From Dicyema japonicum (taxonomy: Eukaryota > Dicyemida > Rhombozoa > Dicyemidae), in the NCBI GenBank assembly GCA_011109175.1, contig RDEW01000018.1, positions 887,345 through 951,344 of the forward strand: 64,000 nt of DNA, written 5' to 3'. A program made the position numbers and the translations under genes. The notes under the pieces were generated by a model that searched no databases, was not told the DNA's origin, and worked only from the letters and a program-made list of their open reading frames with translations. Positions 17,707-61,000 of the stretch are shown piece after piece. Position 1 is the first letter of the stretch, and each line of letters begins with the position of its first letter.

Positions 17707-18214
17707 TAATATATTATTTTTGGACGACGACGATTATTTGAGGATTGGAATCGGACAAAGGCTGGGACTAGACGTTTGCCAGGAGCACCGATGCCGATGC
17801 GGAAAAACAGTCGATGCGAAGGAATTGCACCCGCTGTCCTGCAGAAGAAGCGCCGGAAGAGGACCACATCATGTTGCTCTGAACGATGTGATCGTTAGAG
17901 CTCTGAAGGCTACAGGCTTCCCAGCACAGCTTGAACCAGTGGGTCTTGATCGAGGAGATGGAAAGAGACCTGACGGGATGGCCCTTTTCCCCTTCACGTC
18001 TGGAAGATCTTTGGTCTGGGACGCAACTTGTGTAGACATGTTTTCAAGCACGAACATTTTCAAATCGGTTCAGACACCTGGAGCAGCTCCTTCGACTGCG
18101 GAGAACCTAAAACTTAAGAAATATTCTTGCCTCGGGGACCGCTACCGATTTACTCCTGTTGCGACCGAATCATTGGGAGCCGTTGGTCCGGTAACCGGTT
18201 ATTTCATCGCGAGG
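17707..18214 (+). pseudogene. Family A element, endonuclease-like domain (copy 1)
   Basis: An uninterrupted frame from 17720 reads DDDDYLRIGIGQRLGLDVC, then CRCGKTVDAKELHPLSC, RHN-like GRGPHHVALNDVIVRALK, LEPVGLDRGDGKRPDGMALF, LVWDATCVDMF and GDRYRFTPVATES. The ordered Cys/His cluster, the H-H/LN segment, RPDG and WD match the zinc-plus-restriction-like-endonuclease module of non-LTR elements. The second active-site Asp (WDAT) lies 15 residues after RPD. The frame is open up to the N at 18215. Confidence 0.85.
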
Positions 18215-18215
18215 N
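18215..18215. other. Single ambiguous base (N) at a duplication joint
   Basis: The only N in the window. Sequence just after it repeats, nearly word for word, sequence about 340 bases upstream. Confidence 0.95.
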
Positions 18216-18678
18216 CATGATGTGATTCGTCAGAGCTCTGAAGGCTTCAGGCTTCCCAGCACAGCTTGAACCAGTGGGTCTTGATCGAGGAGATGGGAAG
18301 AGACCTGACGGGATGACCCTTTTCCCCTTCACGTCTGGAAGATCTTTGGTCTGGGACGCAACTTGCATAGACACGTTCTCAAGCACGAACATTTTTAAAT
18401 CTGTTCAGACACCTGGAGCAGCTGCTTCGACGCGGAAAACCTAAAAATCAAGAAATATTCTTGCCTCGGGATCGCTACCGATTTACTCCTGTTGCGACCG
18501 AATCATCGGGAGCCGTTGGTCCAATGACGGCTGAATTCTTGCAAGAACTCGGAGGATTGCTTGCCAGAAAGAAAAGGGATCAACGAGAAGGGTTATGGCT
18601 AAGACAAAAGATTGGAATAGCCATACTCCGAGGGAACTCGTTCGCAATCCACGCAGCAGGCTTCCTCAACTGACATTT
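18216..18678 (+). pseudogene. Family A element, endonuclease-like domain (copy 2)
   Basis: From catgatgtgattcgtcagag the sequence repeats 17868-18200 with few changes, including the region coding for KRPDGMTLFPF and LVWDATC, then continues past the joint to the element's true C-terminus (EFLQELGGLLARKKRDQREG, LWLRQKIGIAILRGNSFAIH). A one-base loss near 18440 shifts the frame. Confidence 0.8.
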
Positions 18679-18744
18679 GTTTAATTGTTAAAAAAAATTT
18701 TGTTAATAAAAAAATTAAAAAAAATAAATATAAAATATTTTAGT

Positions 18745-19735
18745 TTTTTACGCCTCGGAGGAACGGGTCTCAGGTCGGCGCTGGAGATCGCCTATCCAGC
18801 ATATGTGTCATCGCTCTCAAGTGGAAGCCTTTTGGTCCAAGAAATCCTACGTATTACAACCGGACTCTCTTGGGAAAAAGTCTTCGACGAAGCTCGTTGC
18901 GAATGGTGTGAAACTGGTTTGGATATGCCGAACGATCCTTAGAGGCAACGTGACTGGGATGATATTTACTCCAAGAATATCTTCGACGTGATAAATCTGA
19001 AGCCAACCAGCATCGTCTTGCATGCCTCGTGTCCGCCGCCAACCATGGGAGCGGAGCGTGGCTGGATGCACTCCCGTCTTCCTCCCTGGGGACCCTATTG
19101 GACGATGACTGTATTCGGATTGGAATCGCACAACGCTTGGGAGCTGATGTTTGCGTCGAACACCAATGTCGCTGTGGAGGGATCGTCGATGCCAAAGGGC
19201 TGCACCCGCTCTCGTGCAAAAGGAGTGCGGGCAGAGCACCCCGTCATGCTGCTATGAACAACATTGTCTTGCGAGCTCTTGAAGCGGCAGGCTTCCCGGC
19301 AGTACTGGAACCTGTGGGATTGGACCGCGGAGATGGGAAAAGACCGGATGGGTTAACTATCTTTCCGTTCACTGAGGGAAAATCGCTCGTATGGGACTGC
19401 ACTGTTGTGGATTCTTTCTCGAACTCGATGATGCTCAGCTCGGCGCAGTCTGCTGGATCGGCAGCCGATCTGGCCGAAAAAATCAAGATTAAAAAATATG
19501 GCGAAATTGGAGACCGCTACCGTTTTGTACCGGTAGCAATCGAGACGTCTGGTGCGGCTGGAAGTATTACAGCCTCTTTCCTAAAGGAAATCGGGGGAAA
19601 ATTGGCCCACCGCAAGAAAGACGTGCGGGAAGCGGTCTGGCTGAGGCAAAGAATTGGTATCGCAGTTATTCGCGGAAACGCTTACTCCGTGATGTCAGCA
19701 GCCGCTCTCCCATAGTTAATAAATAATATTTTATT
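18745..19735 (+). pseudogene. Family A element, 3' coding part (copy 3)
   Basis: From 18745 the frames read RLGGTGLRSALEIAYPAYVS, WEKVFDEARCEWCETGLDM, and from about 19029 a continuous frame of 228 codons: VSAANHGSGAWLDALPSSSL, CRCGGIVDAKGLHPLSC, RAPRHAAMNNIVLRALEAAG, GDGKRPDGLTIFPF, LVWDCTVVDSF, GDRYRFVPVAIETS and WLRQRIGIAVIRGNAYSVMS. The endonuclease-like module is intact, but the upstream part is shifted and the RT is missing. Best preserved family A copy here. Confidence 0.85.
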
Positions 19736-22396: not shown

Positions 22397-23747
22397 TTAA
22401 ATCTCAATATTTCTCCTAATAGCATCAATTCTCTTCTGTCTGATCTCATCCAAAGTGAGCTCCCTCTTAGAACACGACGAACTGGCATAACCTCACCCTA
22501 ACCTGTACTCACTCATCCTCACCGCAGCAGTATTCAACAGCACATTCACATCACACAGACTGTTTATTCGACTCACTGTAGCCTTCCTCATATCAGTCTC
22601 CAATATCTTCAGCTCCTCATCACTCAGCAAGGACAACACATCATCAAACACAGGACGATAAGTGAACTGTTGCAGCGGGGACAATCTTACAACACCAATT
22701 TGAGCTCGACACGTGGGACAAGTCTGCTGTTGCCGAAACCACAGTTTAATACATTCAACATGGAACACGTGTCCACACTCCATCTTTCTAGAATTCCCCA
22801 AAACCATCGACTCCCGACAAATAAGGCACATGTCCTGATGGGACAAATCATCGGTCTTCACGTCAAACCGTCTGAAATGATCCGCCAATCAACCTGTCAG
22901 TGAGAATCCTCTCGAACACTGCCGAAATGTACAGACTGCGGAACATGCGAATAACCACCCTGGAATAAGTCTGGGAAAAACTGGGAATAATCGAAGGCTC
23001 GCCTCAGCATGTGGAGGAACAGGAAGGGCTGCTGATAGAGGGACAATACATACGGCATTATTACCACCAGTTTTGCGAGATCTGTGTTAATCTATCACTT
23101 ACTGGTAACAAAGTCAGTGATGACGGTCGCAAAATCAAAGATAAATGAAAATGCCCTTATTGCCAGTCGGAATAGGTCTATCGTCAATAACAAAGTCTCC
23201 AACGTCAGAATAAATGTCTCCGACTTCAGAAAGAGCACAACGTAGAGGTCCACCACCAACAAAATGAGAAACAGGACTGCTGAGTCCACACATTACCAAA
23301 TAATCGTAGTTTGAAAACCCACGGGACTCTCCCCATTCGCTGAAGACTTTCCACTTTGATCTCCAACAGCCAATGTAGCACGTGCAAGGAAATCAGTCCC
23401 CCATAAAGAGCAAATGACCCCTGACTCAGGACTGAGAGGAGAATCCCCAACTCCAAACACAACATGACTGTTTTGTCCCTCAGTGTCTGCAATAAGTAAA
23501 ATACTGACTTGAATCTCATCAGATAAGAGTCTCCCAACGAGGAGGTTGGAGAAGATCTTCATACATTCATACATTAAGATAAGTCCCTGTGCGCTAAGTA
23601 TCTGTGGATTAGTTAAGAGACAACCAGTAGTATAATTTTGGATTTGAATAAGTAGTTCACTGAAGTAAAGAAGTCTCTGTGGACGAAAAAACTGTATAAT
23701 ACGCAGAAAGTGGTTATTATTAAGGATGACACAAGTACCGACGACAT
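22397..23747 (-). CDS. HRD1: HRD1/synoviolin-type ER E3 ubiquitin ligase
   Basis: A multipass ER protein that ubiquitinates misfolded proteins during ER-associated degradation. Nine exons start at ATG 23745-23747 and stop with TAA 22397-22399. Introns are 23602-23624, 23487-23508, 23277-23296, 23082-23102, 22998-23020, 22936-22958, 22872-22893 and 22482-22502, all 20-23 nt and GT...AG. The joined frame is 391 codons with no indel needed. Hydrophobic helices fill about residues 1-190, including HVLHWLLEIKVESLQR, which matches the HRD1 FHWLxEDRVxxxER segment. The RING-H2 lies at about 256-295: C-L-I-C, C-G-H-V-F-H-V-E-C, then WFRQQQTCPTC, an HRD1 signature. The protein is shorter than animal HRD1 (about 600 residues), as the proline-rich tail is absent. 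The last exon encodes TLDEIRQKRIDAIRRNIEI. Assignment by motif and gapless alignment from memory. Confidence 0.92.
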
Positions 23748-23900
23748 ACGTAATACACTTTTATTTTTGAGTTTAAATTAATTTTATTAAAAAACAAGAA
23801 AATTTATTAATTTATAATTATTTATCCCCGTCGACATAATTTACGAGACATAATTCAACCAAGAATGATGTTGTGGGTCACCTCGCTATGTCAGTTGGAT
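23748..23900. other. AT-rich region upstream of the HRD1-like gene
   Basis: Presumed 5' flank; no promoter element can be assigned with confidence. Confidence 0.3.
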
Positions 23901-24235
23901 GTGTTTAGAAAAAAACCACCTATTTTCCCTGTTGGTTCTAGGAGATCCCGATGGCGTCCTTCGAGCGGGTTTCAATTAGATCCTCCTAGTGTCGGGAGAT
24001 ATTGAGTCTATCAGGATTTACAGACTACTCAGTCCTCCGTTCGGAGCTGGGAAAATCGACCCACTCAGTCTTCAGACATCAGAGGAGGACATGTCGAATA
24101 CATCGTCATAATGAACAACCGCCATCAACACACAAGATATAGGACTCGTCCCGGGGATTCAAACTCGAATCCTGATCTCTCACTATGTTTATCTCTCACA
24201 TCACTGATTAGCTGGAATGTTATATATGACCTACA
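23900..24235 (-). mobile_element. Possible second SINE family
   Basis: On the minus strand there is a B-box-like GATTCGAGTTTGAATCC stretch near 24140-24160 followed by a GC-richer body than its surroundings, ending near gatctcctagaaccaacagg. No second copy was found in this window, so the call is tentative. Confidence 0.3.
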
Positions 24236-24244
24236 TTCTGCCTA

Positions 24245-25440
24245 AAACCCGAGCATCATCGACATTGTTCTATCTTCCCTGTATAACGATCAGGTGAACA
24301 AGGAAAAAGCAAAATGGGATGATTTTAAGGCAGAAATGGAAAAATCTTCGAAAGACATATTTATGGATAACTTTACCTCCTCGGATAAGCCGTGGCTTTA
24401 TTCAACTCCGTCATATAGTCAGCTGATAAGGAATTAGTCCTCAAAGAATACATACAAGTTCCTTCGCCTCATTTGCGAAAGGAGACGCTTAAACGACCAA
24501 AACCAGTCATCAACCCCAAACCAACTATTCTCATTGAATAAGAAAATATACACGTTGATTTCACAAGTCAATAATGAGTTTGTCTCTCATCTCAATCCGA
24601 AATTAAACCTCAAAAATTCTGGCGATTCATCAAAGGTGTTCAGGTAGTCAAACTAAGTCTGGGTCCTCTCGTGGTGGGTATTTGATAAAAATACCCGAAC
24701 TAAAGATTTTTATGTCAGGAAAACGTCCTGATGTATGAGATCAGTCACATTCCAATTTCCAAAAATACTAACGGAGTCAATCACTACAGCTAAGAGGGGT
24801 CATATCCAAGTTTCCGTAACTCTAAAGTCATTGATGGCCAATTTATCTTCCACTAGAAACACCTCGGACCTACGGAGGCATTTATAAATTCTCAGACTAC
24901 ATTCTCTTACCTTGATGGTATCGAAATTCCTAAAAAGAATAGCTTTGAATGAGATTTCATTCCACCTCAACCGGTCTTCATCATCTCCCGCCTCTCCACA
25001 TTAACGCAGTTTATAGCCGACGGTTTCAATAATTATATGCCCCCTGAAATAATTATTCTGGCTTCAATCGATATGATGAAAGCTTTTGACACATTCCTCC
25101 TCTCAAGCAAGATCAGGTAATCAAATGTCCTTCTGCGGTAGTCTTGGGTCACAAATTTCCTTCCGGAAGACTTTGTCAAAACAGTTTATACTTCCATGTC
25201 TTGGTTTCATCACCTCCCCAAGTGTGTTGCTCTATCATTTTCTGCTTTGTATTGACTTACGAAAGTGAGTCGTGGTCCATTGCCATTTCCCGCTCTTCTC
25301 CCGAAACTGTTCACAATCCAAGAAGCTGCCAAAAGAGTCATTGGCCGCAATTTTATGTCCTCCCCTCTGGAAGCAGTTTTGATTGGACGACAACCGAAGA
25401 GGGTGAGGACAGCTACTCAGTTTAACAACCCTGGTGGATG
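24245..25440 (+). pseudogene. LINE remnant (linker and RT pieces)
   Basis: The plus strand reads DIVLSSLYNDQVNKEKAKWD and DFKAEMEKSS, as found between endonuclease and RT. Much later comes ASIDMMKAFDTFLLSSKI (25056-25112), which fits RT motif A (xxDMxKAFDxx), then a C-terminal-like KLFTIQEAAKRVIGRNFMSS (about 25295-25355). The catalytic YADD region is not recognisable. Heavily shifted. Confidence 0.55.
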
Positions 25441-26340
25441 AAGCAAATGTAAACTTTTCTCGTAGCTCTACGTAGGCATCTTGATAGTTTTGATTATTTT
25501 GATGGTTGAGAAGTATCCTCCGATCTTGCAGGATCTTTCAACAAGCAACTTACTAGGGTTTGGTTCGTGTCTGCTAATAGATGAGAGTATAGCTACAGTT
25601 CCTAAAGCAATTTGATTTTGGTGATCACAAGACGGCACTTTTTGGTCGTTTTTCAATTTCTCGACACACAAGATGCATCTGACAGATTTTTGGAAGCGTC
25701 CGGTTACCTTCAATTGAAGGAAAAATTAGACCACAGAAATTAATGACTAAAATAATAAAGATTTATTTCACCACCCATGTGACTGTTTATAAATCACGTT
25801 TTCCATCAACCCACATGATAATTTAAAGTTTGTAAAATTATTTTTGTATGACGGCAATTTTTGAAAGAAGACTCGATGAAAAAGTAGAAATAAGGACAGC
25901 AATGATATCATAATTAGATATCAGCGGTGGAAGCACATGAACTGTTTTGAGCTCAAGACGTCGTATGGTGTGTTTTATTAAGATGAGAGTCATTGAGTAA
26001 GTAAAATCTTCAGTATATCTAACAATTTACAATTGTTAGACCAGATCTCGCATTATAAGACAATATAACGTTTTTTAAAATTAATGAAAGTTTTTGTTTT
26101 GGTGTTCAAGTAGAGAATATAGAAATCATCAAAATCTATGTCTCCGTAAATAATTGCCTGGTAAATAAATAAGCCACTATATAGAAAAATTAGTTTCAAA
26201 CTAAATTATAGATCGTGGTTCGGACTCTCTCGGAGATCAGTTAGATGTATCTTATTTAAAAAAAGCATTGAACTAACTTAATTTTTAACAAAGTTTAAGT
26301 GCATAAAATTATAAGAAAATTTAACTAAAAATTATAATGT
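25441..26340. other. Intergenic, one unassigned minus frame
   Basis: A minus frame at 25468-25713 contains SVRCILCVEKLKN and VPSCDHQNQIALGTVAILSS, which looks protein-like but matches nothing I know. From 25740 to 26340 the DNA is AT-rich and featureless. Confidence 0.3.
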
Positions 26341-27534
26341 TCAATGGTGGTGAGATTTCTTGAGATTTTGATCTTTATGTCCCAAATTTGAATCTTTGTT
26401 GACGGATTCTTTCAAAGGCTTGGTCTCGCACGTGTGGGTAATTGCCTTGACAGGTTTTGAATATCGCTATGATTAAATATAATATTCAAACATAGGCCGA
26501 GTAATCAATTTTTTGAGATTTGATAAACTGAACCAATATATCTTCCCTCTCCAACCTTTCATCTTCCTTGATTACCCGCGTTGTGTAATTGTCTAACGGT
26601 TGAAATCCAACATTATCTTGTTGGCCCTACCAATCTCAACAGGATGGTACCGATATTTCATTGTTAAAAACATTTGAGGTAATCGATCAAATTATGTGGT
26701 AGTTCGCACAGTTTGTCTCCGTTTTGGATCATAAAGTCAACGATATCTATGCAGTCTTTCATATTATTCATTAAATCAAATTCAATCTGAAATTAGGATT
26801 AAATATACAGGAAATAATGTCGGAGTAAAAACTATGGCCAAATTCTTACTATTCATATTGGGGGACCGATGACCGATTTCATGGAGGAAACAAAATAAGT
26901 TGAATATTCCACACTGAATATATCTCGGCATTAAACGAATTAAGATTGAGTAAGCAGTCAGTTTGTTGGCTTCTGTACATTCTAAACATTATTCCTAATA
27001 TCCCACGTGGTGAAATCAGTCGGACGGCTTCAATAAATTCAAGTGGAATTACTGAAGGCTCAAATGTACGAAGGAGTCGTTTTAGTGCACATGCCAACTC
27101 ATGAATGGTAAAGTAGTTCTGCACTTTAAGGAACTCATCTTTTTTCAGCAGCTCAATGATCTTTGTGACTTTATCATTGTTTCCACTCAATCTGAAGATT
27201 CCCTCCATTAAGTAGTCTATGGTACATTACTCATATGACTACCCTTAAATGATTTAATTTTGTCCATTATCTGTTGGACTCTACTAATCAACCTCAATTT
27301 ATCAGAATCTTCTATGCTTATCTTATATCTCTTACCTTTAACCAGCGTTTTTTTCTTGCTAAAATTATGCATCTTTTTCTTTACTGGTACTTTAATTTCC
27401 ATGAATTCGTGAACACACTCAACTTCTATGTACTGAAAGGCATGCATCATCATAACAGTCCTATAGCTTTCAGGGAAATTAATCATCATTGAAATAATGA
27501 ACTCTTCAAGCATCAAACTGTTCACAAATAACAT
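26341..27534 (-). CDS. RhoGAP-domain protein
   Basis: Predicted GTPase-activating protein for Rho-family GTPases. It starts at ATG 27532-27534; introns are 27217-27242 (26 nt), 26982-27006 (25), 26787-26808 (22), 26627-26650 (24) and 26467-26491 (25), all GT...AG and all in phase. The RhoGAP core begins at about residue 98: DYLMEGIFRLSGNNDKV carries the arginine finger (R106), then ELACALKRLLRTFEPSVIPL, LTAYSILIRLMPRYIQ and NSKNLAIVFTPTLFP with the conserved Asn. A run of five A (plus strand 26666-26670) breaks the frame by one base after DYLKCF. Beyond it coding continues (QQDNVGFQPLDNYTTRVIKE) to a stop at 26341-26343, giving about 356 residues. If the run is real, the protein ends at 265 residues. 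No membrane or lipid-binding domain seen. Confidence 0.88.
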
Positions 27535-27999
27535 TTAATGTAAGCGAACGGAATACTCAATTTAAATATAACCGGTTCCTTTACGAATATTACTTCCTTA
27601 GACTAATTGATTTAATTATTATCATACTAAAATATTATTAATTCAAACAGCTATTAATAGTAGTATTTAACAATAATAGTCATCTCTCATTTACAACACG
27701 TGTGGAAGTTATTCATGTTACACGTCGATAGAACCTCCCCATGTCGATCTGGGGTCATTTACTTAGTTGGGAACTATCTCTTTTTCTTTGTAACCTTGTT
27801 ATCCTGGGGTAATAATAGTGCTCTTTAACCGGATGTCTACATCGGAATCTTCAATAAGACCCTGTCGTTGGGAGGCCACCTAGAAATAAGAAGCTGAGAA
27901 TATCTTCAACAATCACTTGACCACTACCACAAAGTTTCCCATTACTTGAATCCACTAACCAGAGACACACCTGGAGAACACTCAGGAAAATCTAATCTC
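27535..27999. other. Intergenic AT-rich DNA
   Basis: No feature recognised between the RhoGAP gene and the RT remnant downstream. Confidence 0.4.
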
Positions 28000-29340
28000 C
28001 AGCAAAAGAACAAACCTGGACCAAGAGTAAAAAAACTTCGTATCTACGCATGTCATACGGACCCTCGAAGTGAACAAGATAATGGATCAGAGACTTCATG
28101 AGATAACACTTTAGAAATGCTTCCCCGTGGGCCTTCAGACTGGAACGTGCACACCTCCGATGTGGGCATCATCTATATCTTGTTGGAAGAGTTGTTCAGG
28201 ATCTCTTTACTTGCCCTGGAACATAAACGTGGATTGTATAACGTCAAGATGGGTCCCAATACTTCGGGAGTGCATTGATTCTTTACCGCTCCCGTGGATC
28301 TCTAAGAAACTAGACAGGCGCGTAGGGGGTTGCTATTCAGCAGTTTCTCAAACATACCTTCACACATGCTTTTACAAAGGTTTTTCTGGGATGGGAAACT
28401 TCCGACTACTCCGCATTGTTGGTCTCTGATGATTCTGTGAGAGGTGAGGATCACATTGACCAACACCTGAATGGAGTTTAGGGAAAAATGGGGGTGTTCT
28501 AAATCTATGGGAGTGTGGATTTCCAGATCGCCGAAGCAGACAAATAGGATGCTTGGTCCATTCTTGATCGTCAAATTTCAGTTTCGTACAACGTTCAATA
28601 GTGGAAGGAAGAGGGAGTGATTAGATTGAACTGTTTTATTCTTAGAACCAAGGTACCTTGTGGTTGTGGTGGACATGTTTCAGTTTTGTGCTAATAGGGA
28701 GTTCCTCAATAGAACATGATGTATACCCGTCCAGCGTCTCAAGATGTGCGAATGTCATTTTATTTGTCCTCCTTTGAGAGTATCTCTAATTTCACGTCTT
28801 AAAGGGTATCCAAGTACCTCCAGTTGGTGTGATGGTCTCCGAGGGCTTTGGAATGATCTATCAAAACGAGAAAAAATCAGATTAAATTCAAAGTGGGGGA
28901 ATCCAAAATTGGTGACCTCACATTTTGAAGTATTAAGACTAAAGTCGAGGCTCTCCTGTTGAAGCATTAGTCTTCTTAGATTCTCTAACACATTGTTTGT
29001 TGGTCACCATAGTTCGTCATCAAAGTATATAGATTAACACCCCGTCACTAAATTGAACAAGAGCTGGTTGCAGTGGATCCCCTTTTGGAGACCCGAGGAC
29101 GAGATAATGAAGTATTTGCTGTGACCCAGGCTTGACGTTTTTGTGTAAGGGCCACGCCCATATTTGTATTTTGAGGGAGAGTCCTCCAAAATTACATCAC
29201 GACGTATGCTGTCGAAGGTGTTTTAACATCAATTTGGGAATCATGGGGAATATTCATGTCTTTGAGCGTAACTGTCAAAACAGAGTGTACTTTTACTTCT
29301 CAACCTTCGAGACTGTCGACCCCTACTTCATTGGCTTAAG
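28000..29340 (-). pseudogene. Family A element, reverse transcriptase region
   Basis: The minus strand reads KNVKPGSQQILHYLVLGSPK then GDPLQPALVQF (motif B, 29041-29110), a YFDDE motif C at about 29005-29030, VLENLRRLMLQQESLDFSLN, TSKCEVTNFGFP, and lower down SLNSIQVLVNVILTSHRIIR. RTs with GDPLxPALF, YxDDG and LNxSKCE belong to the same non-LTR lineage whose C-terminus carries the RPDG/WD module, so this is probably the RT half of family A. Frames are broken in many places. Confidence 0.7.
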
Positions 29341-29425
29341 AGATCACACAAAAAACCAGACAACTTAAACACCAAAACTTGCTCTCAATAAATTTTAAGG
29401 TTTAAGACATACAATTTGTTAAAAA

Positions 29426-30421
29426 TCAAATAATCTCAAAATCTCCATTGGCAAATACCCTAATGGATCGCTCAGGAATACACGACAGCTCCCCCAGTGC
29501 TAATTCCTTCTTATAATCAACGACAGTCTCCTCTGCCGAACATTCACTCAAATCAATATAAAAAGGGAGTAACGGGGACTTATGCAACTTCACCCCCACT
29601 GTCTTTATATTATTCCACTCCTGGAATTTTAACGACGATTCTACTAAAGGCTTCAATTATGTTATCAGTCAAGAACTGCTCCCCCAACGAGCTGGTCCCA
29701 ACCATGAAAGAACTAAAAGATGAGGACCAATCTTACCTAGTAGAAGCTCCCCCTCGAATAATACAGCCAATAGTGCACAAAGCTCGACGGACTTCTCTTG
29801 GAAGACTGAACTCTGAGCAATTCAAGGGAATCGGGATCCTGAGTTAACCCACATTTACTTTGCACAAGTCATAAACTTTGACCCCAGAAAATTACGCACG
29901 TGATGCTTTATAGACTTGTCTACCCAAAATACATCAAATGAGGCGCCCAGGTTTCTTTTAGCCTCAAAGGGTATGAACTCTTGTTTGAGCTTCATCATTG
30001 GGAAGATCTGGGGTCAACAATAAAAGAACCTCAATGGATTCTAGGCATTTCATGTTATTGAGTCTTTGTTTGACTGTCTCGACTGTGTGATGTACACCCA
30101 CGCCTTCGTTGAGTCTGAGAGCTATTAATTCGTGTTGTAGCACCTCCTGCTGGTCAACGGAAGGTAACTTGAGGTCTTTGTGGAATAAACAGATTTGCGG
30201 ATTTTCTGGCACAGTTCTGTGAGGAAGTCTGCAATAAATTATGGTTTTGGATGATTTTAGGGATTTCTTGAGTGAAAATTGAACGTATATTTTGGATTCT
30301 GCAGAGGAATTAAAAATGTCCTTATTTTCCTTAGACAATTTTGTATTATATTGTAACAATGCATGAACTGCTTCTTTAACCTACATAAGAGAAATTTTGT
30401 CACCTTATTTGAATTTAACAT
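29426..30421 (-). CDS. RSL1D1: Ribosomal L1-domain protein, UTP30/RSL1D1-like
   Basis: A nucleolar protein of the ribosomal L1 superfamily, linked in other eukaryotes to pre-ribosome assembly. It starts at ATG 30419-30421; introns are 30381-30403 (23 nt), 30008-30029 (22), 29839-29858 (20) and 29713-29736 (24). Ordered matches: VKEAVHALLQYN; IYVQFSLKKSLKSS; CRLPHRTVPENPQICLFHKD; after the second intron LKQEFIPFEAKRNLGASFDV and FWVDKSI, equal to the family's LKxxYxxFEaKRxLxxsyDxFlaD; NFLGSKF; and at the end WNNIKTVGVKLHKSPLLPFY. One extra shift at 29618-29636 can be a 19-nt (or 16-nt) intron or a one-base indel after KIPG. About 296-302 residues, close to yeast Utp30. Confidence 0.88.
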
Positions 30422-30424
30422 AAA

Positions 30425-31500
30425 ACTGAATCAAAAGCACGTGCAATGTAATCTTTATAAATATAATTTTAAATAATTTAAAAAATATAATATAAATATT
30501 TTAAATAAGCTATTATATAAAATGTCCTTTAATAATAATAATAAAAATGGAAAGTGCCCGTAAGGCCAGTTAGGTAAGTGGCCAATTGGTTGGAAAGTTG
30601 AGGTGGTCCTTGTCATCCTTCTCATGAGATTGGACGAAATGATTCACTCGGAAGACATCGAAAACTTGAATTTTTGAACAAAGTAAGTGTCTGATGCTCA
30701 TAGGATCTGTATTCGAATCTTGTCCAGTTTGAAATTAAAGGAACATTGAGGATCATCTGTCACGAACTTCGTGTATAGGAAATTAGTTGGTATGCTTATA
30801 CTTGTTATGCCAATATCTAGCCACATTCCTGAACTTACCACCATTTGGAGTCTTTCCTATCCGTAAAGACAAGGATCATTTGGATCCCGATTAGACTAAG
30901 TCGGAATATAGAATAATACAACTTCAACAATTTTTTACTAACCAGGAAATGAAGAGGAATACTACCTTGGATTCTTACTTATCCTCCTTTTCATAGTTGG
31001 GGGATAAAATTGGACGAAGCACTTGGAAGAGTTGAGAAGAATAGAAAGTGAAATCAGGGGAGCTATTGGAATCTTCTTGAATTGTGGAAGAGGGTGCATT
31101 TAGGCGGTGGTCGTTCAGGCATACTAAATGGTCCTGTTCAGATAGGATATGAAGTTAAGGGAAGTTCACCAAGCAGGACTCTTGGCCTTAAAATTCCAAC
31201 AAATTAAAAAGTTTTCAATGGTGGAAAGGCTGAATAGTCGGTGAAGGTAGTCCCCTGAGCAACTTTTTGTGGTGGAATGTAGAGATTAAAGATCGTGTGA
31301 GGTTTAAAAAACTACCGGTATCCCACAAGCACAATAATACATATCATCTAGTGTCTTGGAGTACCAATGGTCAAGTCATAAAGGGTCAACATAGTGCAAG
31401 TCCACGTTATAGACAGTAAAAAACAAAATAATCCGTAATTGGCGAAACAAAAAAAATTCAAAAAATCAAAATAAATAGAATTTAAAAATATAAATAAAAA
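30425..31500. other. Intergenic between RSL1D1-like and GPR89-like genes
   Basis: No convincing frame. A B-box-like TATTCGAATCTTG at about 30711-30723 hints at an old tRNA-derived SINE, but no A-box is convincing. Confidence 0.35.
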
Positions 31501-31503
31501 CTA

Positions 31504-33111
31504 TCAATGTCTGGAAGAGTTGGTGTACCTCATAGCATCGTGCTTATTAAAAATGCAGAGGAATGTAATCAAAGCGGAAATCAGGAAAATAATGTTGAAC
31601 CACCTTTGGTAAAAATCAAATCTAAGGCCTTCCAAAATGGAAGTAATTATGGTCCTATACTCCGGAGGCACAGTGGACCTCATCAGTAACACGGAGGAGA
31701 CACAGTACATCCCCTAACCAATGAGACCATAATCTACCATGATCTCCGCCATCACCAAAAACAATAATGTCAGAAAAGGTCCCTTCGTTTGCCGCCCCTG
31801 TGAACAACCTCTCAAGATTCAACAGAAGACCCCTCACACTGGTCACTGCCAGGATCCCCACTGCCATAAACGACGCCTGTTGAGACCACAGTTTCACCTA
31901 TGCCATAAAATAGCTCACTACGTCAATGTCGATCGAAAGAAAGCCTACCAAGATCGCTATTCCATTAGTAACGGGGTCCGCCCCGCCCACACGATTAAGT
32001 AGAATGCTGACGATCGTCTAAAGGTCACTCAAAATGCCACAATAAAAATCTTCCAGCAGCAGTAACCGAAGAACAACCAACCGACGATGTTGAAATAGAT
32101 CCCCTTGTAGGTTAGTGACTCTAGTATGAGTTTCTAATGGGTGAGAGTGGTGGGTACCCGCTGTCTGGCCAACTCTCGATATTCAAGGTAGTACCAGGTG
32201 AACGAATCCTCTAGCAGTTCAATCTCACGTGCTAGTTTTCCTAGGCTTCAATACAAGATAAACCGATCTCATCGTCCTCTGAGCTGAAATACTTGGAAAA
32301 AACGTGGAAACTCCGACTTTTGAGAAGGTTTTCCTCGTTCCTTAAAAGTATGAGTCTACGCTTAGAGCCACGTGGACCTCCTTTTCTTTCCAATAATCAT
32401 ATTCAGTGTGACCATGACCTGGTTCTTGGCAAACTCAACGTCCCGATCCTCGACTCGGCTAAAATCAAAAGAAGAGGTACCAGAGGAAGTAGAACATGGT
32501 ATTGTAAGGGTAGGTGATGACTCCGACCCCTGACAGAAGGGCAATAACGGCGACTCCAATGATTCCAACTCGACGACCGCCTGCTCGAGAGAGAGGTACC
32601 CTGGGTTGGGGAAAGAAAAATACCTGCCTTGTGGGAAATGAATGGGAACGGATTTCCGATCTTCCAGAAGAGGCAGAATAGGAAGGCCCAAAGAAGGGTG
32701 ATGAGGAACCGACGAAGACTACGATTAGCTGGAATATAAGAGAAGGATACTGAATGGGAGAGACTGCACAAGGGTGTAAGCCATGTGGAGGGGAATAACG
32801 AAAATTATGAAGAAAATCATCATCACGAGGCTGAACTTCCAATGAAAATGGCGGGAACTAGGCTTGGGAATAAGTAATACTCTTGGGAGAGGATATCGAG
32901 GATCTCGAAAATTATTAGTTCAAATAAGGTGCACGAGAAGGCGAAGGTGAGGGAGAAAAGGAGAATCACGCTGAAGTTACGGATTTGGTAGTCACGGAAA
33001 AGTTTTTCGAGGAAGAATATCCACGATCCAAGGAAGAAGATGATCTGTTTTGGTTAAAGAATAGAATACCTGGCTTGCTAAGACAACTATAGAATCTATA
33101 ACGATCGGCAT
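31504..33111 (-). CDS. GPR89: GPR89 / Golgi pH regulator homologue
   Basis: A multipass protein of Golgi/ER membranes; animal GPHR is an anion channel for Golgi acidification. Twelve exons from ATG 33109-33111 to TGA 31504-31506. Introns: 33045-33069, 32858-32880, 32729-32750, 32601-32623, 32459-32480, 32356-32377, 32241-32263, 32134-32157, 32018-32040, 31898-31921 (or three nt shorter), 31714-31737; all 21-25 nt. Coding length is 451 codons, like the animal protein (455). Matches in order: LTFAFSCTLFELIIFEIL, SRHFHWKFSLVMMIF, FWKIGNPFPFIS, RVGIIGVAVIALLSGVGVIT, YKGIYFNIVGWLFFGYCCWK, VKLWSQQASFMAVGILAVTS, VRGLL and MYCVSSVLLMRSTVPPEYRT. A one-base loss before RVGIIG and an extra T in a T-run near 31759-31770 (before MAEIM) disturb the frame and cancel in length. 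Probably a working gene with assembly errors. Confidence 0.92.
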
Positions 33112-33194: not shown

Positions 33195-33940
33195 AATATT
33201 ATTATTTCAAATTGATCCATAGATGGAATGCTCTGGCATCCAACCTAGTCAGCCGGCTCTCTGGACATCGCCTGGATTGTTTCCAAAATTCGAGGGAGGC
33301 GGTTGATGGATCTTGGCTTGGGGTTTACCCATGTCAAGAAGTTGGTGGATTGTTGGATGATGACTCACTTCGTACAGCTGTATGTCTACACCTCGGATTG
33401 CCTGTTTGCACCAAATCGAAGTGCAAATGTGGCTGTCTATCGGACGAACTGGGTCTCCACCTCCTCTCATGCCGGAGCGGAATTGGCAGATCTTCTCGAC
33501 ATTCGGCAATGAACGGCATCATTAAGAAAGCATTAGAATCGGCTGGATTCCGTTGCCGGATCGAACCGACTGGTCTATTTGACAACGGAAGACGCCCTGA
33601 CGGCATGACCTCCTTTCCTTTTGAGCGAGGGCGAAACCTTGTATGGGATGTGACCTGTGTCTGCTCTTTCGCCCCAAGCAAAAAAATTATTCACCGGGCA
33701 GACCTTCTTCTCAAGCAGAGGAAGTAAAAAATGCTAAATACTCTGATATCAGCGACAGGTACATTTTCGCACCTGTCGCGATTGAAACTTCGGGGAACTT
33801 TGGCCCTTCCTGAACCATTTGGGAAAACTACTAACTGACAAAACTGGTGATCTTCGTGAGACGAGATGGCTCAAGGAGAGGCTCTCGTTGGCTGTTGTCC
33901 GTGGGAATAGCTTGTGCATCTCCCAACAGCTGAATTAAAA
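33195..33940 (+). pseudogene. Family A element, 3' coding part (divergent copy)
   Basis: The frame from 33212 reads WLGVYPCQEVGGLLDDDSLR, CKCGCLSDELGLHLLSC, RSSRHSAMNGIIKKALES, GRRPDGMTSFPF and LVWDVTCVCSFAPSK, then shifts near 33725 and continues to LSVGIA. All endonuclease-like motifs are present. The sequence differs clearly from the copies at 17-19 kb, so it is a separate subfamily. Confidence 0.8.
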
Positions 33941-58096: not shown

Positions 58097-61000
58097 TTTA
58101 TTTAAGCACTTCACGAGAGCCTTATTAATTATAGCCCCGCATGTGCAGCAAAAGAAACAAGGTTAGATGTCATCCTTTTCCATGCTCTCCTGTTCATAGC
58201 CAAGGCTCTCATGCTGTCCAGGTCGTCGGCATTTTTAGATTTTTTTGATCTTGACCAGGTCTTTTTGTAAGACTATTGGCAGTGTTGTTCTTGGTCTTCC
58301 ACGATAGCGGCCTTCTTGACTAACATAGTATGTTTCCATAGATATGTTCGGTGGGGATGTTAATTCCATCCTCAGCACGTGTACGAAGAGCCTCCATCGG
58401 GATTCCAGTACTTCTAAGCTGATAGGTATAGTGCTGCATCTCTTATATAAAGCGTTCCTCGATATTCTCGTAGGCCAAGTAGTTCCTGTTATTTTTCTCA
58501 GCTGACCTCTGTGGAACGAGTCTAGTTTTTCCATATCCGCTGATGAGGTCGCCCAAGTTCCAGCGTTATATAAAAGTACGGGTTTTATGAATGAGTCGTA
58601 TAATAGGATTCTCATTTTCGTGTCGATGCCTTTTTGATTGAGCCATAAATTCTTCAGTTTATATAACGCAGCATTGGCTAGAGTTTTCCTACGTAAAATA
58701 TCTTCGCTATCTCCCAAAAGTGAACCGAGTTTCTTTACTTGTCGCCACTTCTCTTCTAGGACGTTACTCATCCTTCTTATCTCTGTGAGTTCTGTTTTCT
58801 CTGTTCACAGTAAGAAACCATTTCCCTAGTACATCTGGTGCTTTTTCTAATAGGTTTTCCAGGACCTCTTTGTCTTCAGAAATTAGGTCTACATCGTCCG
58901 CGTAGATTACTTCTTCCGTCTTTCCTTGGTATGACGGTCTAAGTTCCCTCATAGCGGCTTCCAAATAAATTGTGAATAGTAGAGGAGAAAGAGAGTCTCC
59001 TTGTGGAGTGCCCGTATTTGTTTCAAATTTTCTTGAATAGGTTTTTCCGACTCTCACAAGGAGCTCAGTGTTAGAAAGTAGAATTCGGATCATCCTTAGA
59101 CTCGATTCATCAAGAAATCCGCTCAGTACCCCCATTAATTTGTTCCTGTTAACCGTATCAAAAGCTCTTGATAGGTCAATTCCCAGAATATTGGTGGCGT
59201 TACGGTATCTTTGATATGTTGCACACCTCCATCTGTGACTCCAGACCGCATCAGCTGTGGATCTCCCTTCTCGAAAACCACTTTGACTATCTGGTAGGTA
59301 TTTGTAAGCAGATCCTTTTATTCGTTCAAGCACAATGTTTGCCAAGACTTTGCGTAATGAATTTAGTAGTATGATGGGTCGCAAATTTTCGAGCGGTCCT
59401 CTGTTTTTGTTGTTTTTTGTATGGGGATTAGTAGTCCCGTACCCAGAGGTAGAGTTGAGTTAGTTGAAAACATTTCATTTAGTAGTGTAGCGATTTTTTC
59501 AAAAAGGAGGTCAGGGCCGTATTTCAGTAGTTCTGGGTTTATCGCATCTGGTCCGGGGCTTCTGTTATTCTTGAGTTTTCGGCAGGCCGTTTTGATTTCC
59601 TCGGCCGTGATTGGTATCTTAAGGGGTCTTGGCCTTCCATCAAATGGGTGGATTTCTATGGTTTTGATGTTGAAAAGCTTCTCAAAGTGAGCCGCGATGG
59701 CTTCAGTTTGTTCTTTGGTGTTCAGTATCAGCTTACCGTTCTCGTCTTTTATGGTTAGTCGACTTCGGTTTGTTCGCCGCAGCAAACGGGCAGCGACGTA
59801 CACCTGTGCGTTGTCTTTCACTTTGTTTACTTCTTCTATACAGGAGCTATTTCTTCTATGAAAAGCTTCTTGTTCAGACCCTTTATTTTTCTTCTGACAC
59901 GTTGTCTTTCGCCTTGAAGGGCTTTTATCGCATTAGTGTCAGTGGCATTTGATTTTCTCATATTTATTTCTTTTAGACTTTTCGCAAGCTCAGGAACATC
60001 TGGATGAATAGCCTTCAGGTGCATTTTACTATTCTCCCTTTTGCCAAGACATGCTTCAGCAGCTTCGTTGATGGTGTCCTTTGTGCGTTTCCAGGCGTCT
60101 TCTAGCGTGGTATCCACCAATACGTCCTGCAAATTAGTCTGAATGTATTGTTGATATCTCTCAGTAGTCTCCGGTTGAGAAATCAGCCTTTCAGTCGCGT
60201 AGTCGCCTCTGATTTTCTCAAATTCGTGATTTTTTGCATTCTGTATTTAATGGCATGTTTTTTCAGGGTGAAGGTCGCAATAACCATCTTGTGGTCGCTG
60301 ACAGTCGTCGAGCCTTCATATGAACGTGCGTTTACTAGAAGGTGTTTGTCTTTAGCCCGGCATATGACATAATCGATTTGGTTGTATATTGGGACCAGCT
60401 TTCCTTCTGAGTTCCTTCGCTTCCCCATCCACGTAGTTTTGTGGCAGGCAGGATGCGTAAATGCAGTATTGCATAGGAAAAGGTTGTTTGCCATACAAAA
60501 GTGACCAAGTATTGTCCCGGGTAAATTTCTTATTCCACGTCCATGTTCTCCCAAGAAAACATCATCCGGGTTATTCTTCATCCCGACTTTTGCATTCAAA
60601 TCCCAGCAATGAGTATTAGTGATGACGACTCATATTCGTTGTACGTCCGTAACAGTGCTGAATAGAAGTCGTCTAGTTCTGTCGGATCTTTCGCTACTCT
60701 CCCGCAGTGTGGCGCATAAACATTTACAATTGTCAGAAAGCTCTTCGAAGGTGGTAAGTCGTTTAGCCGGATTTGTATAACACAGATCCTGTCATTCACA
60801 CTCCATATACGGTGGACTGCACTTGTCAACTTTGAGTGGATGGCAAATCCAAGTCCATAATGTTTTGAGTCGCTTGGCTGACATATAATTCGATATTCGC
60901 CAAAGTTTTCATCAAGGCTACAAGTAACTTTCGTCTCTTGTAGGCACCCAATAGATACGTCGTATCTCTCCAGGTCATCACAGAGAATCTTCCTCGACCA

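Follow-up and report, generated by a model that had tools for sequence, protein, structure and literature searches.

Introns of about 23 nucleotides in an animal genome, likely that of a dicyemid, probably lie near the minimum size usable by its major spliceosome

Can the very short GT...AG segments that interrupt conserved genes in a 64,000-nucleotide (nt) stretch of genomic DNA (the whole of which we call the window) be introns, and if so, how might a spliceosome find room to act on them? The question is posed by four genes resembling HRD1, RhoGAP, RSL1D1 and GPR89, all on the minus strand and all containing GT-AG introns of about 20-26 nt. Our analysis suggests, with a probability of about 0.88, that these are U2-type spliceosomal introns that have shrunk to near the minimum usable by the major spliceosome of this animal, most likely a dicyemid. 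The four genes are:

22397..23747, minus strand: HRD1/synoviolin-like gene, 7 or 8 predicted introns (two gene-model versions) of 20-26 nt
26664..27534, minus strand: gene with a RhoGAP domain, for which 4 introns are predicted, each of 22-26 nt
29426..30421, minus strand: RSL1D1-like gene of the ribosomal L1 family, for which 6 introns are predicted, each of 16-24 nt
31504..33111, minus strand: GPR89/Golgi pH regulator-like gene, gene model from start codon to stop codon

The gene model places 33 introns in these genes (HRD1 8, RSL1D1 6, RhoGAP 4 and GPR89 15), 32 of them of 20-26 nt and one of 16 nt. The first-pass annotation, which had counted 28 introns of 20-26 nt here, was therefore about right, even with the 11 introns that alignment to homologues gives for GPR89 (see below). 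Its argument from coding totals divisible by three is a weak one, because such totals arise by chance one time in three and because segments of this kind abound within exons, the 40,797 nt of predicted coding sequence containing 796 GT...AG pairs that span 20-26 nt; the introns themselves nevertheless stand, on the strength of homology and of sampling elsewhere in the genome. The joined proteins match Pfam families as expected from their names, with scores of 58.2 bits for TPR_SYVN1_N and 46.0 for zf-RING_2 in HRD1, 65.0 for Ribosomal_L1 in RSL1D1 and 80.4 for RhoGAP in the RhoGAP protein. The introns of these three genes are based on the gene model and Pfam, GPR89 being the window gene covered by spliced alignment. 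HRD1 was kept out of the spliced aligner because only 21 relatives matched, several of them algal (the best, with an E-value of 7.7e-26, is from a nematode).

For GPR89, 361 relatives were found with an E-value of up to 0.001 among 7999 candidates scored, and the top five listed show 41-43% identity over 97-99% of the query. Spliced alignment to these homologues yields 11 introns of 19-25 nt plus one frame step near position 31759, and we trust this alignment more than the gene model with its 15 introns:

33045..33069, minus strand: GPR89 intron 1, 25 nt, gene model and alignment
32858..32880, minus strand: GPR89 intron 2, 23 nt, alignment; the gene model instead has 23 nt at 32836-32858
32729..32750, minus strand: GPR89 intron 3, 22 nt, starting GTATCCTT, gene model and alignment
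32581..32599, minus strand: GPR89 intron 4, 19 nt, alignment; the gene model instead has 26 nt at 32649, 23 nt at 32623 and 24 nt at 32577
32459..32480, minus strand: GPR89 intron 5, 22 nt, gene model and alignment
32356..32377, minus strand: GPR89 intron 6, 22 nt, gene model and alignment
32241..32263, minus strand: GPR89 intron 7, 23 nt, gene model and alignment
32134..32157, minus strand: GPR89 intron 8, 24 nt, gene model and alignment
32018..32040, minus strand: GPR89 intron 9, 23 nt, gene model and alignment
31898..31921, minus strand: GPR89 intron 10, 24 nt, gene model and alignment
31714..31737, minus strand: GPR89 intron 11, 24 nt, gene model and alignment
31739..31830, minus strand: GPR89 frame-conflict stretch, with the frame step near 31759; the gene model proposes one intron of 20 nt at 31830 and another of 26 nt at 31808

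An assembly error, or a pair of introns, could lie behind the conflict in the last stretch. Left as it stands, the GPR89 gene model scores 48.2 bits for ABA_GPCR and 50.6 for GPHR_N, and the joined protein, with one junction joined by hand, scores 104.5 and 50.4 bits, respectively.

The same size class recurs well beyond the window. We aligned genomic DNA to the proteins of relatives with a spliced aligner of our own, in which introns of 10-300 nt carry equal cost, and obtained 76 introns from nine genes on nine contigs, with a median of 23 nt; 73 of them measure 19-30 nt and 69 measure 20-26 nt, the three outliers being of 15, 40 and 68 nt. PKG contributes 15 introns of 20-25 nt, for which the gene model gives identical lengths in identical order, SF1 seven introns, U2AF65 four, and five further kinases another 39. 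When every possible pair of boundary dinucleotides was tried on introns no longer than 120 nt, GT-AG ranked first of 256 pairs in all four genes examined, by large margins over the runner-up in GPR89 (1128 vs 1013) and PKG (1904 vs 1682) and by smaller ones in SF1 (702 vs 680) and U2AF65 (499 vs 478). Putting single introns back lowered the family score in 26 cases out of 26 (11/11 in GPR89, at a cost of 0.1 to 387.8 bits, and 15/15 in PKG, at a cost of 2.3 to 644.7 bits), the large losses mostly accompanying a frame shift and the GPR89 model retaining its frame step. Homology, including this reinsertion test in GPR89 and PKG, is the strong support for the introns.

Gene prediction and public profiles lead to similar lengths. 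A gene finder seeded by kinase exons, with a flat length prior of 12-250 nt and GT and AG as its only site rules in the first pass, called 118 introns; 45 of these measured 18-30 nt, most often 22-23, and another 50 exceeded 60 nt. After a first training, 222 of 293 introns fell within 18-30 nt, and we regard most of the 50 that exceeded 60 nt as false. Retraining with heavy weights on length produced 48 gene calls (two of which, L054 and L055, overlap and double one gene, and some of which are transposon-like) and 355 introns, 314 of 20-26 nt; this set is unfit for measuring long introns, since lengths were limited to 120 nt and those over 35 nt received almost no weight. When site models were dropped, the trained codon table was kept and all lengths of 14-40 nt were treated equally, 31 genes yielded 199 introns, most often of 22 or 23 nt (36 each). 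Lastly, the overlap-corrected gaps between abutting exon matches to public profiles measure 22-26 nt in 15 of 18 cases and 13, 38 and 68 nt in the rest; these pairs were picked by eye where profile ranges abut within 8 positions, wider gaps and one overlapping duplicate being dropped. Removal of introns raises the kinase profile score, for example from 147.6 to 242.1 bits.

What remains inside so small an intron was asked of those homology introns, 73 in number, that measure 19-30 nt (mean 23.3 nt, median 23), the three outliers being dropped from the branch counts. Their donors keep AG/GUA, with A at +3 in 58%, and do not keep the G at +5, which occurs in 11 of 73. A pyrimidine (U or C) precedes the terminal AG in 81%. 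Length is a multiple of three in 22 introns, 15 of which contain an in-frame stop; phases 0, 1 and 2 account for 33, 21 and 22 of the full set of 76. In the first 35 homology introns the bodies contain 42% T compared with 26% in exonic decoys, and this U-richness separates the two with an area under the curve of 0.83. A TNAY branch-like motif is enriched, with a fit of 40.6 nats that exceeded all 40 shuffles (maximum 13.6), the shuffles having had fewer fitting rounds than the real set. A free search for a branch motif was discarded when it settled on the terminal AG; four starting motifs converged to one fit. The A of the motif lies mostly at +15 to +17 and is base 7, 8 or 9 when counted back from the 3' end: 63 of 73 introns have an A within +15 to +17, where about 42 would be expected at 25% A, and A occupies +16 in 32 of the 52 introns that measure 22-24 nt, vs 53 of the 174 exonic decoys that measure 22-23 nt. 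In 22-nt introns the 5' and 3' spacings meet at position 16 (11/16).

The spliceosomal parts that would act on such introns are present in the genome. U2 has 25 matches (22 over the cut-off), U5 has 15 (all over it) and U6 has 10 (9 over it), and the U1 5' end ACUUACCUG is found in seven of the eight copies read out of 11 matches, the eighth having one change. The AG/GUA donor thus mostly does without a +5 G despite a canonical U1 5' end. The U1 genes (L009-L016) are dispersed and variable, and their stem I loop seems to differ from the AUCACGA of U1. The SF1-HH profile has a single genome match, the joined SF1 protein aligns over query residues 18-339 to a PDB chain named Splicing factor 1, and joined U2AF65 aligns over residues 110-303 and 325-425 to PDB chains of the U2AF 65 kDa subunit. 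Since U1, U2, U5, U6, SF1 and U2AF65 are all of the usual kind, adaptation has probably proceeded by spacing and not by loss of these parts. We propose that a typical intron would combine a weak donor (AG/GUA without +5 G) and a U-rich body with a UNAY-like branch site placed some 15-17 nt into the intron. The putative branch A would be base 7, 8 or 9 counted back from the 3' end, which itself reads UAG or CAG. The two branch spacings would then sum to 22 nt, the shortest common length, and their coincidence at position 16 in 22-nt introns probably explains why there is a floor near 22 nt.

Several results weigh against this account. The nine homology genes are kinases, splicing factors and GPR89, a non-random choice, and the tiny size is not universal, as U2AF65 has an intron of 68 nt and SF1 one of 40 nt. 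None of the 11 U1 matches passes the curated cut-off (best 69.0 vs 69.5 bits). As to the position of the branch, 5' anchoring was ahead in the first four genes (37.8 vs 22.1 nats) and is ahead in the nine pooled (40.6 vs 35.6), but the next five genes favour 3' anchoring (20.2 vs 16.8), as do the gene-model introns (113.2 vs 85.6, from a model that used an acceptor profile) and, slightly, the introns called without site models (56.0 vs 50.9). The idea of a branch fixed from the 5' end only, which at first looked good in four genes, did not stand in five more or in the set without site models. The frame step in GPR89 is not bridged by one GT-AG intron, and the 796 exonic decoy pairs compare with 822 expected from codon shuffles. 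As exons are not depleted of such pairs, the combination of short length and GT-AG is excluded as the signal by which introns are recognized, and so is length alone. The frame step and the commonness of GT...AG pairs in exons would also suit a quite different explanation, in which pseudogenes, assembly indels or translational bypassing cause the frame breaks and GT...AG segments fit by chance. We consider this scarcely credible in view of the first rank of GT-AG in four genes of four (if by a small margin in SF1 and U2AF65), the recurrence of the same lengths in nine genes on nine contigs and between profile matches, the U-rich bodies and the enriched branch motif. The 68-nt intron of U2AF65 (L055:1933-2000), whose neighbours measure 22-23 nt, contains by eye a small inverted repeat and is perhaps involved in self-regulation.

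The genome also encodes RNAs of the minor spliceosome, with one match over the cut-off for each:

C68:163471-163599 (L064:1501-1629, minus strand): U12 RNA gene, 85.4 bits (cut-off 53)
C34:237761-237858: U6atac RNA gene, 37.0 bits (cut-off 33)

These single matches, together with GPR89 intron 3 and its GTATCCTT start, raise the question of whether the minor spliceosome removes some of the introns described here, which we think very unlikely. The U12-type pattern (an RTATCCTT donor with a TTCCTTRAY branch) has 16 matches genome-wide vs 11 for a reversed control, no clear excess; the sampled sequence holds 11 U12-type candidates vs 5-19 in 20 shuffles, and GPR89 intron 3 has no good U12-type branch sequence by eye. 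A literature search for papers on GPR89 with minor introns found none. The U2-type reading can be extended to a spacing-limited spliceosome, in which a branch A at about 16 plus 6 bases would set the 22-nt floor and the donor would be freed of its +5 G alongside a canonical U1, while a kept minor spliceosome may act on introns just as short, which surveys that drop lengths below 30 nt would have missed (the accessible text of PMC10639083 states such a cut for that survey). We offer this combined picture tentatively and think it somewhat unlikely as a whole.

Whose genome is this? It comprises 64,672,829 bases in 191 contigs and is that of an animal: the organism-named relatives among the best 120 of 361 for GPR89 and the best 120 of 3495 for PKG are all animals. 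A homeobox profile has 67 genome matches, and a Hox-type homeodomain lies at L062:1501-1668 with a YPWM motif upstream. Within the window, LINE (long interspersed nuclear element)-type retrotransposon-like open frames were judged by eye at 17720-19715, 33212-33727 and 58235-59821, and positions 34000-60000 hold a tandem repeat whose units, about 5.34 kb long, each contain two tRNA-like genes; seven tRNA matches have equal scores and an odd anticodon. Animal gene content, intron size and a total length not far from the 67.5 Mb of Dicyema japonicum make it likely that the genome is a dicyemid's, though the 21 HRD1 matches, a nematode best among them, include algae as well, which tells against certainty. 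It is quite unlikely that the ultra-short introns belong to some other reduced parasite. No dicyemid name occurs among the best 120 of 361 GPR89 relatives, and the mean intron differs by 2.9 nt from that of Dicyema acuticephalum, both of which would fit another parasite; in the literature consulted, however, dicyemids are the only animals that reach this range, the orthonectid Intoshia linei having a median of 57 nt according to the available text of PMC6543705.

Very short introns in dicyemids are already known, and the size class, being familiar, is no surprise for specialists. What this genome adds is a place to measure the tightest spacing at which an animal spliceosome can work, with its small nuclear RNAs (snRNAs) and two branch-site proteins located. 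Among the papers listed on dicyemid introns and genomes, titles and abstract openings name neither dicyemid branch sites nor minor-spliceosome RNAs, the accessible parts of PMC2222250, PMC6543705 and PMC6736024 contain no account that we found of branch spacing, donor strength or snRNAs, and the terms U12 and splice site are absent from the main text of PMC6543705; a search of the literature on the shortest metazoan introns found nothing on point, as judged by the index entries. The measured spacing pattern and the minor-spliceosome RNAs are the parts worth following, U12 and U6atac beside introns of about 23 nt being an unexpected pair that poses a direct, checkable question. Gene finders expecting longer introns would probably misread this genome.

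The comparison with known systems, drawn from the portions of the cited papers open to us, places these introns closest to those of dicyemids, with which they share an animal genome that is small and repeat-rich and introns that are uniformly very short and several per gene (PMC2222250, PMC6543705, PMC6736024). Reported values are a mean of 26.2 plus or minus 1.9 nt in D. acuticephalum (n=16; PMC2222250), a median of 27 nt with two thirds below 30 nt in Dicyema sp. (PMC6543705), and a mean of 38.2 nt in D. japonicum, whose genome is of 67.5 Mb with 49% repeats (PMC6736024). The first-pass assignment of the window to a dicyemid is likely right. The introns here are of the size class of 26-27 nt but shorter, by 2.9 nt in comparison with D. 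acuticephalum (23.3 vs 26.2; t 5.6), a difference to be read with caution since our 73 introns come from nine chosen conserved genes. Intoshia linei is likewise a reduced animal parasite with shortened introns, but its median is 57 nt (PMC6543705). The human ultra-short introns of 43-65 nt and the short introns dependent on SPF45/RBM17 also leave little room for a polypyrimidine tract, and are about twice as long (PMC8363638). The introns of Paramecium (20-35 nt) and of the Bigelowiella nucleomorph (18-21 nt), both as cited in PMC2222250, are alike in size class and do not belong to animals.

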